NCBI RefSeq assembly: GCF_000317615.1
Contig: NC_019780.1
Span: 806,001 to 870,000, forward strand
Reading direction: 5' to 3'
Length of the DNA stretch: 64,000 nucleotides
Source: Dactylococcopsis salina PCC 8305
GTDB lineage: Bacteria > Cyanobacteriota > Cyanobacteriia > Cyanobacteriales > Rubidibacteraceae
Shown: positions 18,362 to 25,269 of the stretch, one piece after another
Layout: each line of letters starts with the position of its first letter
How positions within the stretch are numbered: the first letter of the stretch is position 1
Notes under the pieces: model-generated
Seen by the model: the letters and a program-made list of their open reading frames with translations, nothing else
What the model was told of the DNA's origin: nothing
Database searches by the model: none
Made by a program: the position numbers and the translations under genes

Positions 18362-19735
18362 ATGTCCTTCTCAAAAATTTTAATTGCTAATCGTGGGGAA
18401 ATTGCCCTGCGGATATTACATAGTTGTGAAGAATTGGGGATCGCCACCGTCGCTGTCCACTCTAGCATCGATCGCAACGCCCTCCATGTCCAACTCGCAG
18501 ACGAAACCGTTTGTATTGGCGAACCTCCTTCCAGCAAAAGTTATCTCAATATTCCCAACCTCATCGCCGCCGCCCTCACTCGCAACGCCACAGCGATTCA
18601 TCCTGGATATGGCTTCCTAGCAGAAAACGCCAGATTTGCCGAAATCTGTACCGATCATCAGATTCACTTCATCGGACCTACTCCCGACGCGATTCGTGCT
18701 ATGGGAGACAAATCGACCGCCAAAGAAACCATGCAAAAAGCAGGCGTTCCCGTTGTTCCTGGCAGTGATGGCTTACTCGCTGACGAAACCAGCGCTTATC
18801 GCTTTGCGCGAGACATTGGCTTTCCCGTGATGTTAAAAGCCACCGCTGGCGGTGGGGGGCGAGGAATGCGCCTCGTTCATCACGAAGGAGAATTAAGTAA
18901 ACTTTTCCAAGCTGCCAAAGGCGAGTCAGAAGCAGCGTTTGGTAATAGTGGGGTTTATTTAGAAAAATTTATTGAACGTCCTCGTCATATTGAGTTTCAA
19001 ATCTTAGCGGATAGTTATGGCAATGTGGTGCATTTAGGCGAAAGAGATTGTTCCATCCAACGTCGCCACCAAAAATTGTTGGAAGAATCACCGAGTCCCG
19101 TTTTAACCCCCAACTTACGACAAAAAATGGGGAAAGCCGCCGTGAAAGCCGCGCAGTCGATTAATTATGTTGGCGCGGGAACGGTAGAATTTTTGTTAGA
19201 TGCTCACGATAATTTCTATTTCATGGAAATGAATACTCGTATCCAAGTTGAGCATCCCGTTACAGAGATGGTAACTGGATTAGATTTAATTGCAGAACAA
19301 ATTCGCATCGCCCAAGGGGAAAAGTTGAGTTTTCGACAAAAAGATGTCCAAATTCGAGGACACGCCATTGAGTGTCGCATTAATGCAGAAGACCCCGATC
19401 ATGATTTTCGTCCCCAACCTGGACGCATTAACGGTTATCTTCCCCCAGGGGGACCAGGGGTGAGAATGGACTCTCATGTTTATACGGATTACGAAATTCC
19501 CCCTTATTATGATTCTCTCATCGGTAAATTGATTGTTTGGGGACCCACCAGAGAAGCGGCGATTAAACGCATGAAACGAGCCTTAAGACAATGTGCCATT
19601 ACAGGAGTAAAAACAACGATCGGGTTTCATCAGAAGATTCTAGAAACGCCCGCATTCCTAGCAGGAGATGTTTACACCAATTTTGTCCAACAACATTTGT
19701 TCAATAATCAACTTCGCGTCAACATTGGTGACTGA
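18362..19735 (+). CDS. accC: Biotin carboxylase subunit of acetyl-CoA carboxylase
   Basis: ATP-dependent carboxylation of biotin on AccB, the first step of fatty-acid synthesis. Length is 457 residues, as expected. N-terminal [17 protein letters not shown]-grasp loop [10 protein letters not shown] (about 161-170); HIEFQIL and [18 protein letters not shown]; catalytic [14 protein letters not shown] (about 287-300). accB is not adjacent. The last 17 bp overlap the end of the convergent hydrolase gene. The ATG follows a heptamer repeat directly. Confidence 0.97.
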
Positions 19736-20627
19736 TGATCCAATCCTTGATCCCTTCATTCACCTGTTGCGGCACTTCATCATGGGGACAGTGTCCAGCG
19801 TTAAGAAAACGTTCCGAAATTTGACTGTAGTATTGATGGAATTTGCTCGATCGAGTTCTGGTATCCATCCAAGGATCACCTTCTCCCCACAGTAACAACA
19901 AAGGAACAGTTAACCGTTTTAATAACTCATCGACTTTATCCCCTCTCGGACTCTTGAACACAGAAGCAAACACTTTCGCCGCTCCTCGATCACAAGAAGG
20001 ACGATAAATATCTTCTACCAACTGGTCAGTTACCGCACTTTGATCCAAATAAACCTGCTTTAGAGTTTTCCGAATCATCGACTTGCGGCGGACATATTGA
20101 AACAGCAGAAAACTACTCCAAGGTTGTAAGAGAATTGAACGAACTGTTTTTTGTAATTTCTGTTTTAACGTTAATTGTTCCTGTTTTCCCTCATCTTTTT
20201 TCTCTTGATCCGAAAACGGACCCGCACTATTTAATAAAACCACACCTCGCGTTAACTCAGGATGATTTCCTCCCACACACAAACACGCATATCCTCCCAA
20301 AGAATTTCCCGCTAAAACCACCGCTTCACCCACGACTTCCTGAATAAATGCAGCCAGTTGCTCTTCCCATACTTTGCCACTATAAACCCAGTCTGGTTTG
20401 CTCGATCGTCCAAACCCCAGCAGATCGATCGCATAAACCTTAAAATCCGTTTGTAACGTCGCAATATTTTTTCGCCAATGATCCGTCGAAGCGCCAAAAC
20501 CATGAATTAACAACAAAGGAGGATAATCACCCTTTTTTTTCCCTGCTTGCACATAATAAATGTTTTGTCCTCGCCATTGCCAATAATCTCCCACCACTGT
20601 TGTTGACACTGCTTGATTTACTTCCAT
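19719..20627 (-). CDS. Alpha/beta hydrolase
   Basis: A 302-residue cytosolic hydrolase. Oxyanion region LIHGFGAS (about 40-47), nucleophile elbow GNSLGG (Ser109), acid in WGEGDPW and His in [10 protein letters not shown] near the C terminus form a full catalytic triad. It resembles the cyanobacterial and plastid pheophytinase/haloalkane-dehalogenase-like group, but the substrate is not determined by sequence. Its 3' end overlaps the end of accC by 17 bp, tail to tail. Confidence 0.88.
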
Positions 20628-20686
20628 CGTTTTCTTAAGTTAAGTTTTTTTAAGCATAATCTAACTTTCAATATAGCAACCTATAT

Positions 20687-20825
20687 GTAGGTTGGGTGAA
20701 GCAAAACGAAACCCAACACCAATCAGTGATCAGTAACCAGTAAAAGGTAGGTTGGGTGAAGCAAAACGAAACCCAACACCAATTAGAATCATCAGCCCCC
20801 TTACCCCCAATTTTGGGGGAATTAT
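20687..20825. repeat. Two GTAGGTTGGG copies and a CCCCCAATTTTGGGGG hairpin
   Basis: Quasi-palindromes at 20687-20719 and 20747-20779 with the loop variant GAAGCAAAACG, then a G/C-rich hairpin at about 20803-20820. These occupy the gap upstream of the hydrolase. Confidence 0.8.
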
Positions 20826-20867
20826 AAGCATTGATCGCCTATGAATCCCCCCAGGGGCGAAATTTTT

Positions 20868-20876
20868 TGCTATAAT
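20868..20876 (+). promoter_or_regulatory. Extended -10 box of candidate RNA copy 1
   Basis: TGCTATAAT, preceded by a block (GATGAATCCCCCC then GCGAAATTTT) that is conserved before the second copy. No TTGACA-like -35 box is present. Confidence 0.55.
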
Positions 20877-20882
20877 AAAAGA

Positions 20883-20990
20883 AGCTCAGATTTAATTTGA
20901 AATCTAGTGAGCAAACATTTGCCCTGCCAAATTTTAGAAAGCTCAAAGTTCGGTGACGCACTCAGGGAAATTTTGCCCAAGTTAGAGCAA
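20883..20990 (+). ncRNA. Candidate small RNA, copy 1 of a tandem pair
   Basis: Begins about 7 nt after an extended -10 box. The 5' hairpin pairs GCTCA-GATTT (20884-20893) with AAATC-TAG-TGAGC (20900-20912), with a 6-nt loop AATTTG and a 3-nt bulge. The unpaired AAACATTT stretch follows. Further 3', CAGGGAAATTTTGCCC can form a second small stem. No open frame is conserved between the copies. The 3' end is not defined, since no clear T-run is seen. It resembles no RNA family I can name with confidence; comparison with Yfr2/Cyano-1 is worthwhile. Confidence 0.5.
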
Positions 20991-21036
20991 TCAAGCATCG
21001 ATCGCCGATGAATCCCCCCCCAACCGCGAAATTTTT

Positions 21037-21045
21037 TGCTAGAAT
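21037..21045 (+). promoter_or_regulatory. Extended -10 box of candidate RNA copy 2
   Basis: TGCTAGAAT in the same position relative to the hairpin as in copy 1. The upstream ATGAATCCCCCC and GCGAAATTTTTTGCTA are retained. Confidence 0.5.
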
Positions 21046-21051
21046 GAAGGA

Positions 21052-21120
21052 GGCTCAGGTTTAATTTGAAACCTAGTGAGCAAACATTTATCCTGCCAAG
21101 TTTTATTCTAAAATCTGAGC
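21052..21120 (+). ncRNA. Candidate small RNA, copy 2 of a tandem pair
   Basis: GCTCA-GGTTT (21053-21062) pairs with AAACC-TAG-TGAGC (21069-21081), same loop and bulge as copy 1. The A-U pair of copy 1 is replaced by G-C, so both sides changed together. Sequence from the promoter to CCTGCCAA is about 85 percent identical to copy 1 by eye. After that the copies diverge, and here TTTTATTCTAAAA can form a short 3' stem before an A-rich run. Confidence 0.5.
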
Positions 21121-21188
21121 AAAAAAATATAACTCAAGATAGTTCACGAAACCCAACACAAATTAGTCAAACTTTCTCCACTACGTTA

Positions 21189-21493
21189 GGGCTTACTGAA
21201 TAAAACTGAAACCTTTACCCAATGAGGCTTTAAGGCTCTTAACCCCTCAAAAAAGTGCAAGGGAGATAAGGGAGACAAGGGAGACAAGGGAGACAAGGGA
21301 GACAAGGGAGACAAGGGAGACAATTTTTCTCCCCCATCTTCCCCATCTCCCCATCTCCCCCATCTTCCCCATCTTCCCCATCTTGCCTTTTGCCTCTTGC
21401 CTTTTGCCTCTTGCCTCTTGCAACTTGCCTCTTGCAACTTGCCTAAGGCAACTTGCCTTACTTAACCAGCCAATGGACTTTTTCAGCAACCCC
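21189..21493 (-). mobile_element. Non-autonomous element, 7-bp target duplication TACGTTA
   Basis: Ends GGGCTTACTGAATAAA and the complement of GGGGTTGCTGAAAAAG. Direct repeats TACGTTA lie at 21182-21188 and 21494-21500. The right repeat contains the stop codon of the lyase-like gene. The interior has CAAGGGAGA nonamers, TCCCCCATC nonamers and GCCTCTT heptamers. Relative to the element at 12123 it is in reverse orientation. Confidence 0.85.
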
Positions 21494-21497
21494 TACG

Positions 21498-22727
21498 TTA
21501 GACAACAGAAATCGCGTCAATAATCGCTTCTAGCGCGATCGCGCAGTGTGTCCAATGCGTTCCTCCCTGCATGAACACCAGATAGGGTTCTCGCAATGGA
21601 CCATCTGCGGATAACTCAGAAGTGCTGCCATCAATAAAAGTTCCCCCAGCCATCACCAACTCACTCTCATAACCAGGCATTTGTGCGGGTACGGGATCAA
21701 GATAAGACCCCACAGGAGATTGTTGTTGTAAAGCACGACAAAAGGCGAGGAGTTTCTCTTTACTTCCCAACTTAATCCCTTGAATGACATCACGACGCGG
21801 CGTTTTCGGAAGGGGATTAACGGGATATCCTAATTCGTGAAAGACGTAAGAGGCTAAATGCGTTCCTTTAATCGCTTCTCCTACCATTTGTGGCGCGAGG
21901 AATAAACCTTGAAATAAGAGACGATTTTGATCAAAGGTTGCACCTCCCTCACTTCCGATGCCAGGGGCGGTGAGACGGCAACAAGCCGCTTCGACAAGCG
22001 ATTTTCGTCCTGCAAGGTATCCCCCCGCCGTGACGATCGTTCCCCCCGGATTTTTGATCAGAGAACCTGCAATTAAATCAGCCCCCACCGCAGGCGGTTC
22101 TTCTGTTTCCACAAATTCCCCATAACAATTATCCACAAAACAAATTGTGTCTGGATTCTGTTTCTTAACCGTTGCCACGATTTCTTTGATGTCCTCGATC
22201 GATAAACTTTCGCGCCAACTATAGCCACAAGACCGTTGAATTAACACTAAACGGGTGTTTTTAGTCACTGCTGTCGTTAAACCCTCCCAATCCAGAGTTC
22301 CGTTTGCGGTGAGAGGGAGTTCTCGATAATGAATGCCAAACTCTTTTAAAGAACCAGATGCGGATTCCCGTAAACCGATTACTTCTTCTAAAGTGTCGTA
22401 AGGTTTTCCCGCCACCGCCAGCATTTCATCTCCTGGACGTAACACCCCGAACAACGCGCAGGCGATCGCATGAGTCCCAGAAACCAATTGTACCCGTACC
22501 GCCGCCGCTTCGGTTGCCATAACAGTTGCAAAAACTCGATCGAGCGTTTCTCGTCCTAAATCCCCGTGTCCATAGCCACTCACACTCGAAAAATGATGTA
22601 CGCCTACCCGTTCTTTTGCAAAGGCTTCTAAAACTTTTTTTACGTTATGCTTAACCTTGGCATCTATTCCAGAAAAAATTGGAAAAAGTGCCGTTTGGGC
22701 TCTTTCTAGCAAGAGTTGACTGTTCAT
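21498..22727 (-). CDS. Methionine gamma-lyase family PLP enzyme (aluminium-resistance-like)
   Basis: A fold-type I PLP enzyme of about 409 residues from the ATG at 22727; an in-frame GTG at 22811 would add 28 residues that look non-conserved. The family is marked by VHHFSSVSGYGHGDLGRE near the start, SGTHAIACALFGVLRPGDE, and the PLP lysine in AGSLIKNPGGTIVTAGGY. It was named for aluminium resistance or YnbB and its substrate is unproven. The stop codon lies in the target duplication of the mobile element. desC is divergent. Confidence 0.88.
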   Translation of the reverse strand: MNSQLLLERAQTALFPIFSGIDAKVKHNVKKVLEAFAKERVGVHHFSSVSGYGHGDLGRETLDRVFATVMATEAAAVRVQLVSGTHAIACALFGVLRPGDEMLAVAGKPYDTLEEVIGLRESASGSLKEFGIHYRELPLTANGTLDWEGLTTAVTKNTRLVLIQRSCGYSWRESLSIEDIKEIVATVKKQNPDTICFVDNCYGEFVETEEPPAVGADLIAGSLIKNPGGTIVTAGGYLAGRKSLVEAACCRLTAPGIGSEGGATFDQNRLLFQGLFLAPQMVGEAIKGTHLASYVFHELGYPVNPLPKTPRRDVIQGIKLGSKEKLLAFCRALQQQSPVGSYLDPVPAQMPGYESELVMAGGTFIDGSTSELSADGPLREPYLVFMQGGTHWTHCAIALEAIIDAISVV

Positions 22728-22851
22728 ATTGTTCAGTTTCTGCGAAGATTCTCTAAATTTTAAGAATTTATTTTGATTTTTGTCTTGAATCTGTATCGCT
22801 AAACTCTGCACAATACCATTAAACTGCTCATAAGGAAACGTAAATTAGTTC

Positions 22852-24321: not shown

Positions 24322-24975
24322 GTGGATATTGCCCGCCATACCAGCATTTTTAAGAAACAGGAAAACTTAGTTGTGTTCACCGATTTATTGCATCTTCCGA
24401 TTGATCGCGATCGCGCTAGTTGTGCGGATCAAATCCTTAACCTTACTGGTATGGCTTGGGAGGATTACGAAAGACTAACTGAGGGAGATTTCGGCTATCG
24501 CATTTCTTATTGGCATGGAATCATAAAAATTGTGTCTCCCAGTAGAAACCATGAGAGGATAGCGGAAGTAATCAACGGTTTAATTAAAACTTACTGTCGC
24601 CAATTTAATCTCGCTTATTTTCCGATGGGTTCAATGACACTAAAAAATCCTCCTTTAGCTGGGAAAGAACCCGATCATAGTTTTGCTTTTGAAACAGATA
24701 AGTCGATTCCTGATCTAGCAGTGGAAGTCATTTATAGCAGTGGTAACGTTGCTGATCTAGAAAAGTATCGAGACTTGGAGGTAAAGGAAGTTTGGTTTTG
24801 GCGTGATCATAAAATTACTTTTTATCGTCTGGTTGATGGTAACTATCAAGAGATCGAGGAAAGTGTTTGTTTGCCAAAACTAACGGCTGATTTTTTGATT
24901 ACCTTTATCAATCGGGGATTGACAGAAACTCCACTGACGATCGAACAAGATTTTTATAATTTCTTAAATGGGTAA
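24322..24975 (+). CDS. Uma2 family endonuclease-like protein
   Basis: Up to 217 residues from the GTG at 24322; the real start may be later, since the first 35 residues are poorly conserved. The PD-(D/E)XK features are KIVSPSRNHE (about 72-81), GKEPDHSFAF (about 113-122), IPDLAVEVIY and YRDLEVKEVWFW. It shares the family with 11500-12123 but the two are distant. A fragment of the 7-bp-duplication element (GGGTTTGCTGAAAAAG) begins 4 bp after the stop. Confidence 0.85.
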   Translation: MDIARHTSIFKKQENLVVFTDLLHLPIDRDRASCADQILNLTGMAWEDYERLTEGDFGYRISYWHGIIKIVSPSRNHERIAEVINGLIKTYCRQFNLAYFPMGSMTLKNPPLAGKEPDHSFAFETDKSIPDLAVEVIYSSGNVADLEKYRDLEVKEVWFWRDHKITFYRLVDGNYQEIEESVCLPKLTADFLITFINRGLTETPLTIEQDFYNFLNG

Positions 24976-24978
24976 CTA

Positions 24979-25000
24979 GGGTTTGCTGAAAAAGTCCTTT
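24979..25000 (+). mobile_element. Solo left end of the 7-bp-duplication element
   Basis: GGGTTTGCTGAAAAAGTCC matches the left end of the elements at 12123 and 28665. No right end is found before the following repeats, so it is a remnant. Confidence 0.6.
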
Positions 25001-25015
25001 AATCATATAATTTAA

Positions 25016-25269
25016 CTGATGTTGGGTTTCGTTTCTCTACACCCAACCTACATTTTTGTCTGATGTTGGGTTTCGTTTCTCTACACCCAACCTACATTTT
25101 TGTCTGATGTTGGGTTTCGTTTCTCTACACCCAACCTACATTTTTGTCTGATGTTGGGTTTCGTTTCTCTACACCCAACCTACATTTTTGTCTGATGTTG
25201 GGTTTCGTTTCTCTACACCCAACCTACAATCTGATGTTGGGTTTCGTTTCTCTACACCCAACCTACATT
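25016..25269. repeat. Six tandem copies of the GTTGGGTTTCG quasi-palindrome
   Basis: Units of 44 bp (starts 25016, 25060, 25104, 25148, 25192) and a sixth at 25231 after a shortened fifth unit. Each reads CTGATGTTGGGTTTCG, TTTCTCTAC, ACCCAACCTACA. Same family as the single copies elsewhere. Confidence 0.9.

Follow-up and report, generated by a model that had tools for sequence, protein, structure and literature searches.

The window, by which we mean the whole 64,000-nucleotide stretch of the Dactylococcopsis salina PCC 8305 genome that was analyzed, contains a gene-free gap of about 870 bp between an alpha/beta hydrolase gene and a gene for a methionine gamma-lyase family protein. An earlier inspection of the letters, hereafter the sequence-only reading, had put this gap at 560 bp. 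Inside it we found a repeated unit of about 70 bp, present in two copies that are both on the plus strand. The features of the locus are as follows:

19719-20627, minus strand: alpha/beta hydrolase, left flank (Pfam check)
20841-20872, plus strand: copy 1 shared upstream block (ATGAATCCCCCC ... GCGAAATTTTTTGCTA), read in the sequence and common with copy 2
20868-20876, plus strand: copy 1 extended -10 box TGCTATAAT, predicted start near 20883; such a box lies at all nine credible copies of the genome
20884-20912, plus strand: copy 1 hairpin, predicted outer stem of 4-5 bp, inner stem of 5-6 bp and 3-nt bulge on the 3' side (covariation in 23 sequences; itself a member of the model)
20913-20936, plus strand: copy 1 conserved tail AAACATTTGCCCTGCCAAATTTTA; the tail is conserved across families
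21008-21041, plus strand: copy 2 shared upstream block, read in the sequence
21037-21045, plus strand: copy 2 extended -10 box TGCTAGAAT, predicted start near 21052 (sequence and extended -10 survey)
21053-21081, plus strand: copy 2 hairpin, predicted (covariation; itself a member of the model)
21082-21105, plus strand: copy 2 conserved tail AAACATTTATCCTGCCAAGTTTTA, with a predicted duplex with the genome's own 23S rRNA of -26.8 kcal/mol against a shuffled mean of -17.6
21498-22811, minus strand: methionine gamma-lyase family protein, right flank (Pfam check)

Read directly, the hairpin is GCTCA-GATTT-AATTTG-AAATC-TAG-TGAGC in copy 1 and GCTCA-GGTTT-AATTTG-AAACC-TAG-TGAGC in copy 2. The compensatory change from A-U to G-C, the AATTTG loop, the TAG bulge and the GCTCA/TGAGC outer stem are all present in the letters as the sequence-only reading had described them, and so are the paired extended -10 boxes and the upstream blocks ATGAATCCCCCC and GCGAAATTTTTTGCTA common to both copies. 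The tandem arrangement that it proposed also stands, with a measured offset of 169 bp in place of about 165. The two copies are 86% identical over 113 bp, and a DNA search of the own genome (labelled G000, a single contig of 3,781,008 bp) returned a third copy at G000:471502, with 89% identity over 92 bp.

Other repeats share the gap. Its right part, at 21258-21458, is made of simple repeats that are partly complementary to one another (seven of CAAGGGAGA, six of the TCTTCCCCA type and nine of TCTTGCC); the short unit GGTTGGGTGAAGCAAAACGAAACCCAACACC is found twice at 20690-20785, upstream of copy 1, and a piece of the ACGAAACCCAACAC type, which recurs many times in the genome, lies downstream of copy 2.

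Distribution of the family among cyanobacteria

The search led from the third copy, obtained by DNA search, to two more that were recognized by reading another match, and then, through a search of relatives, to homologues in three genomes of the genus. A first covariance model (R1) comprised eight sequences with the structure set by eye (outer stem of 4 bp, inner stem of 6 bp, 3-nt bulge), R2 was built from 23 sequences and R3 from 63 rows. With R1 we found nine credible copies in the own genome, the window pair included, six of which sit in three tandem pairs. The same model found the RNA in all six genomes of the genus that were searched and in none of three searched genomes from other genera of the same taxonomic family.

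A covariance-model search across cyanobacteria had been proposed in the sequence-only reading, and it located the family both in the genus and beyond, with a patchy occurrence in six other cyanobacterial families, which we label f10, f6, f7, f13, f23 and f28. R2 had matches, many of them doubtful weak singles, in 41 of 388 genomes from the order (E<=0.05), and R3 in 20 of 291 at E<=3e-5. Among the R3 matches, a part of which was read, there are 10-16 in each of seven f10 genomes and at least 20 in genome G013; the own genome gave ten, one of which (2331309) is a coding false match. We take f10 to be of the Phormidium willei or Sodalinema type, the latter genus name being our assumption, because copy L087 of genome G045 hardly differs from copy L078, which is from P. 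willei. An exact motif scan of named genomes found the motif in Prochloron, Halothece, 'Cyanobacteria bacterium SW_9_44_58', Spirulina CS-785/01 and Phormidium willei BDU 130791, and a reversed-pattern control had no match in 388 genomes. Three non-cyanobacterial records that matched the exact motif were rejected, as the architecture was absent by eye.

Among further loci with weak matches that were read, the architecture was seen only in L136, L137 and L194 (genomes G014, G013 and G426); the remaining weak model matches, read in part, are not counted as copies. Neither are L216 (G000:2331309), L227 and L169, which lie inside a long open frame, although the 30 Halothece-group rows in the tail-consensus and promoter counts given below include them. 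Another 16 rows fall within frames that run 101-167 codons from stop to stop, and these were retained. Two rows that are out of register (L050 and L229) were excluded from the transition/transversion and 23S scoring and are present in the earlier counts, while window copy 2 (L016) is missing from the terminator, placement and transition/transversion counts. On contig C81 of G013, model matches at 24934-24985 (+) and 24991-25043 (-) stand tail-to-tail, 5 bp apart.

Hairpin, promoter sequences and genomic placement

The hairpin covaries. In the 23-row alignment, which was fitted to the model and thereby favours the structure, standard pairs occupy 95.4% of 216 cells and changes on both sides occur at nine of the ten pairs. 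Double-change cells number 51, against 12.9 +/- 3.6 in shuffled alignments (none of 500 as high), and the covariation score of 0.641 drops to 0.124 or less when the partners are slid. An eight-row MAFFT alignment, made of the same rows on which the structure was chosen, is 97.5% paired and has ten double-change cells against 3.7 shuffled. The covariation claim rests on the 23-row alignment because L169, a coding match, is among the 63 rows of R3. Between copies, the outer stem changes as a block (GCUC/GAGC, GGCU/AGCC, GGUU/AACC, GAUC/GAUC, GUCC/GGAC and GGUC/GACC). Homologues in relatives that had lost the stem pairing would have spoken against the sequence-only reading by its own account, and we found that they keep it. 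By this 23-row covariation, the family has the conserved, compensated secondary structure expected of a bacterial small RNA. Folding energies of the window copies are unremarkable (z of -0.31 and -1.50); the evidence for the predicted structure is comparative, and energy folding alone is insufficient to reveal it. A pseudoknot between loop and tail reached p<=0.05 in one of 52 distinct cases, and its mean did not improve on that of shuffled sequences. One sequence out of seven (L155, an f10 copy) has a minimum-energy fold with an alternative hairpin in the tail, and some of the others pair the tail partly elsewhere.

Promoter-like sequences are enriched upstream of the copies. A sigma70-type pair with a score of at least 10 out of 12 is found there in 27 of 31 rows of f10, 9 of 11 of f6, 3 of 4 of f13, 2 of 7 of f7 and 5 of 30 of the Halothece group, and is absent from the single f23 row and the single f28 row; an equal stretch downstream reached the same score in 0/31, 0/11, 0/4, 1/7 and 0/30 rows, respectively. 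In the Halothece group, three of whose 30 rows are coding false matches, an extended -10 box lies upstream in 18 rows versus one downstream, with 1.6 expected from shuffles, and it is present in nine out of nine credible copies of the own genome. A consensus -35/-10 scan of 20640-21500 gave no site at the promoters of the window copies. A promoter of its own, as a bacterial small RNA should have, is indicated for the family at the level of sequence enrichment. In three own-genome copies, the window pair included, and in G426 the -10 box adjoins the hairpin, so the RNA would begin at the hairpin or just before it, while other copies have a 5' part, very roughly 20-90 nt long, ahead of the hairpin. 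In the 5' part of many f10 and several Halothece-group copies we observed by eye a second recurrent element, CACCAAATTTTTT or AAAATTTTTT.

An intrinsic terminator, the other signal commonly expected of such RNAs, is not a feature of the family: canonical ones were found within 130 nt in only 4 of 81 rows (shuffles 0), in none of 26 in the Halothece group and nowhere in the window stretch 20640-21500. In L217-L221 and L165 (G014) and in several f10 copies among L151-L160, inverted repeats that are specific to the lineage and carry a GTACA- or GTATCA-like element were seen by eye a few bases past the tail; these are possible 3'-end signals.

Forty of the 41 copies with long flanks lie outside open reading frames of at least 120 aa, and one lies inside. 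The neighbouring genes that were read are diverse, with no common function and no recurrent neighbour. They are mostly housekeeping in look, going by names assigned from the sequences (the Pfam check covered the window flanks only). What we take to be a PNPOx-element-FtsH neighbourhood is common to G002 and G003, a presumed HAD phosphatase neighbour to G000 and G003, and a presumed histone-deacetylase-like neighbour to G001, G003 and G005; genes that we take to be TnpB-like lie near three Halothece-group copies. Vertical inheritance after local duplication would describe the family better than present mobility.

The conserved tail and its candidate partners

The most constant part of the RNA is its tail, CAAACAUCUAnSCWGSGCAA followed by an A/U-rich end (85 rows). 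Its positions 2-7 are almost invariant, and it is conserved while the stem sequence, the 5' part and the 3' flank vary. The AAACA that follows the stem, singled out by the sequence-only reading as a possible single-stranded target-binding region, does open this segment, and the binding role is a candidate only. In 64 distinct tails, positions 2-10 have 31 transition versus 0 transversion cells and positions 11-18 have 51 versus 110, counts that come from related sequences and are not a probability. Transition-only change at positions 2-10 fits a pairing that would tolerate G-U.

A role of the tail as an anti-ribosome-binding-site was tried and rejected, with no signal at gene starts and no clear enrichment of seeds. 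Duplex energies at 644 gene starts fell within the range of 12 shuffled tails, and for 14 of 40 shuffled tails some site among the 644 did at least as well as the top site (proC-like, mean -20.1). Complements of the seeds versus their reversals numbered 11 and 12, 10 and 5, 25 and 26, 15 and 10, and 112 and 124. When two mismatches were allowed, the own genome had 99 sites complementary to the tail versus 67 for the reversed pattern; the 99 include eight copies of the family itself. Thirty sites were read, those eight among them, and an ATG that begins a frame longer than 100 codons was seen only at L103, where it is internal to a longer frame. No pairing of the tail with Cyano-1 RNA was found, and pairing with 16S rRNA was no better than shuffled.

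The best lead to a partner may be 23S rRNA, and the evidence is suggestive only. Tail positions 5-20 are antisense to positions 2024-2039 of the own 23S rRNA, UUGCGCAGGAUAGGUG, or 2108-2123 in E. coli numbering by alignment to rrlB, a segment that we take to be the L1 stalk; the 23S rRNA of the own genome was also used for the tails of other families. In a clade-weighted profile of 65 distinct tails over positions 5-20, the 23S site scored 24.88, above all 3,327,850 sites in 1.664 Mb of genome. Random sites score as high once in 39.97 million, with about 7e-5 expected in random RNA of 23S length. The site is the best one in 23S for six of seven clades, and when f10, f6, f7 and the Halothece group are each scored alone, at most one of 1.73 million genomic sites reaches the same score. 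Judged by duplex energy, 44 of 80 rows have their best 23S match here, the strongest case being a G017 copy with 16 contiguous positions paired to the own-genome 23S rRNA (-29.4 kcal/mol); window copy 2 reaches -26.8 kcal/mol. Of four plasmid-borne 23S copies from cyanobacteria, two carry the 16-nt site unchanged and the others carry it with one and three differences.

These results would agree with a tail that base-pairs with the L1 stalk of 23S rRNA while 50S particles are immature or lack L1, and that tunes their assembly or activity. However, the stretch 5-20 was chosen after a duplex had been seen, and for other stretches genomic sites at least as good number 56 (positions 2-20), 48 (5-15) and 29 (1-24), some of them being the antisense of the copies themselves; with positions 2-10, 23S rRNA is nowhere special and 7,041 genomic sites are as good. 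In f28 and f13, 44 and 91 genomic sites score as high as the 23S site, the single f23 tail prefers another site in 23S rRNA, and window copy 1 has its best site elsewhere, at an energy that equals its shuffles. Moreover, the nearly invariant AAA at positions 2-4 stays unpaired, position 11 is the complementary U in only 11 of 85 rows, and in mature ribosomes the site is base-paired and covered by protein. We hold this pairing, which is a sub-case of the explanation preferred below, to be rather unlikely.

Interpretation and relation to known RNA families

The family is absent from Rfam 15, which gave no match at the gathering threshold in the window or in 19 homologous loci. In a permissive scan of the window, the strongest matches were miRNA families at 21250-21400 on both strands, spurious matches that the simple repeats produce. 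A few weak matches that touch the copies belong to unrelated families (E 1.5-7.8) and were rejected, and a permissive scan of 20 further loci likewise gave nothing relevant. The sequence-only reading had suggested a relation to Yfr2/Cyano-1, and here the comparison was negative. The Cyano-1 model (RF01701), through which Yfr2 was compared on the assumption that the two are one family, had no match at E<=10 in 20600-21500 of the window, nor at E<=3 in 20 further loci. In the own genome Cyano-1 occupies other loci, G000:3218147 (over the cut-off) and 393383 (below it), and none of the nine loci of the new family, from which the copy at 3218147 differs in sequence. The GGAAACA repeat of the 5' hairpin loop is absent from the window copies, a weak distinction given that six Cyano-1 matches of the genus are also without the exact string.

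Yfr2-Yfr5 are cyanobacterial small RNAs that are multicopy in MED4, occupy changing loci, have their own -10 elements and carry a GGAAACA repeat within the loop of a 5' hairpin (PMC1242208). The new family is like Yfr2-Yfr5/Cyano-1 in its genetics (multicopy, changing loci, own -10) and differs from Yfr2-5 in sequence and fold, being a hairpin followed by a 3' single-stranded CAAACAUCUA tail (PMC1242208). Ribosome targeting would be shared with rancRNAs if the 23S pairing, here a predicted complementarity, is real; bacterial examples such as tmRNA, SRP RNA, nicked tRNA and SprF1 are other kinds of RNA (PMC8938821). A literature search by motif strings and topics, with most subscription journals outside its scope, returned no description of the family. 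NsiR1, Qrr and the csRNAs are multicopy small RNAs in which several paralogous genes share one interaction segment, and the new family is likened to them by description, not by sequence.

We consider it probable that the window holds a tandem pair of genes belonging to an undescribed family of multicopy small RNAs that act in trans and have the tail as their working surface. The small-RNA interpretation offered by the sequence-only reading gains support from covariation in 23 sequences and from promoter enrichment, and we infer that the copies are transcribed, act in trans and use the tail as a contact surface. Each copy would start from its own promoter, with an extended -10 in the genus and TTGACA/TATAAT in others, and the transcript would open either directly with the hairpin or with a lineage-specific 5' part ahead of it. 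The hairpin, with its bulge on the 3' side, would be a scaffold that exposes the nearly constant single-stranded tail and its A/U-rich end, which may act on something common to the carriers.

It is possible, though we do not favour it, that the tail is bound by an RNA-binding protein that the copies titrate or recruit, following a logic like that of CsrB or 6S. Conservation of the tail over a variable stem sequence, 5' part and 3' flank, the lack of an mRNA target signal at the sites scanned and the multicopy state would all agree with this, but there is no protein candidate, and transition-only change at tail positions 2-10 fits G-U-tolerant pairing at least as well. The number of copies, the tandem pairs, the lineage-specific expansions and the presumed TnpB-like genes near three Halothece-group copies might also suggest a dispersed structured repeat or a decayed mobile element without RNA function. 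We find this improbable: promoter sequences are kept, pairing is kept by compensation, some neighbourhoods are common between species with no recurrent neighbour gene, and viral contigs contain no match to the strict exact f10-type pattern, which would also miss the window copies. A cis-regulatory leader or attenuator, which a hairpin plus A/U-rich end and the alternative tail hairpin of one f10 copy might recall, is very improbable. It is largely refuted by orientation, as 24 of 41 copies are followed downstream by a gene on the opposite strand (16 by one on the same strand and one by none) and the element is therefore not a leader; nor do the neighbouring genes that were read have a common function.

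Read as trans-acting small RNAs, these genes would add a structured RNA family, with 10-16 matches in f10 genomes and at least 20 in G013, to organisms in which few small RNAs are understood, and the constant tail offers a defined starting point from which to seek the partner even without 23S pairing. That the family acts on the ribosome, its tail pairing with L1-stalk 23S rRNA and its high gene number matching an abundant partner, is in our estimate unlikely. If the 23S pairing holds, bacteria would have a small-RNA family that targets ribosomal RNA in place of mRNA, and cyanobacteria would control 50S assembly or activity through RNA.
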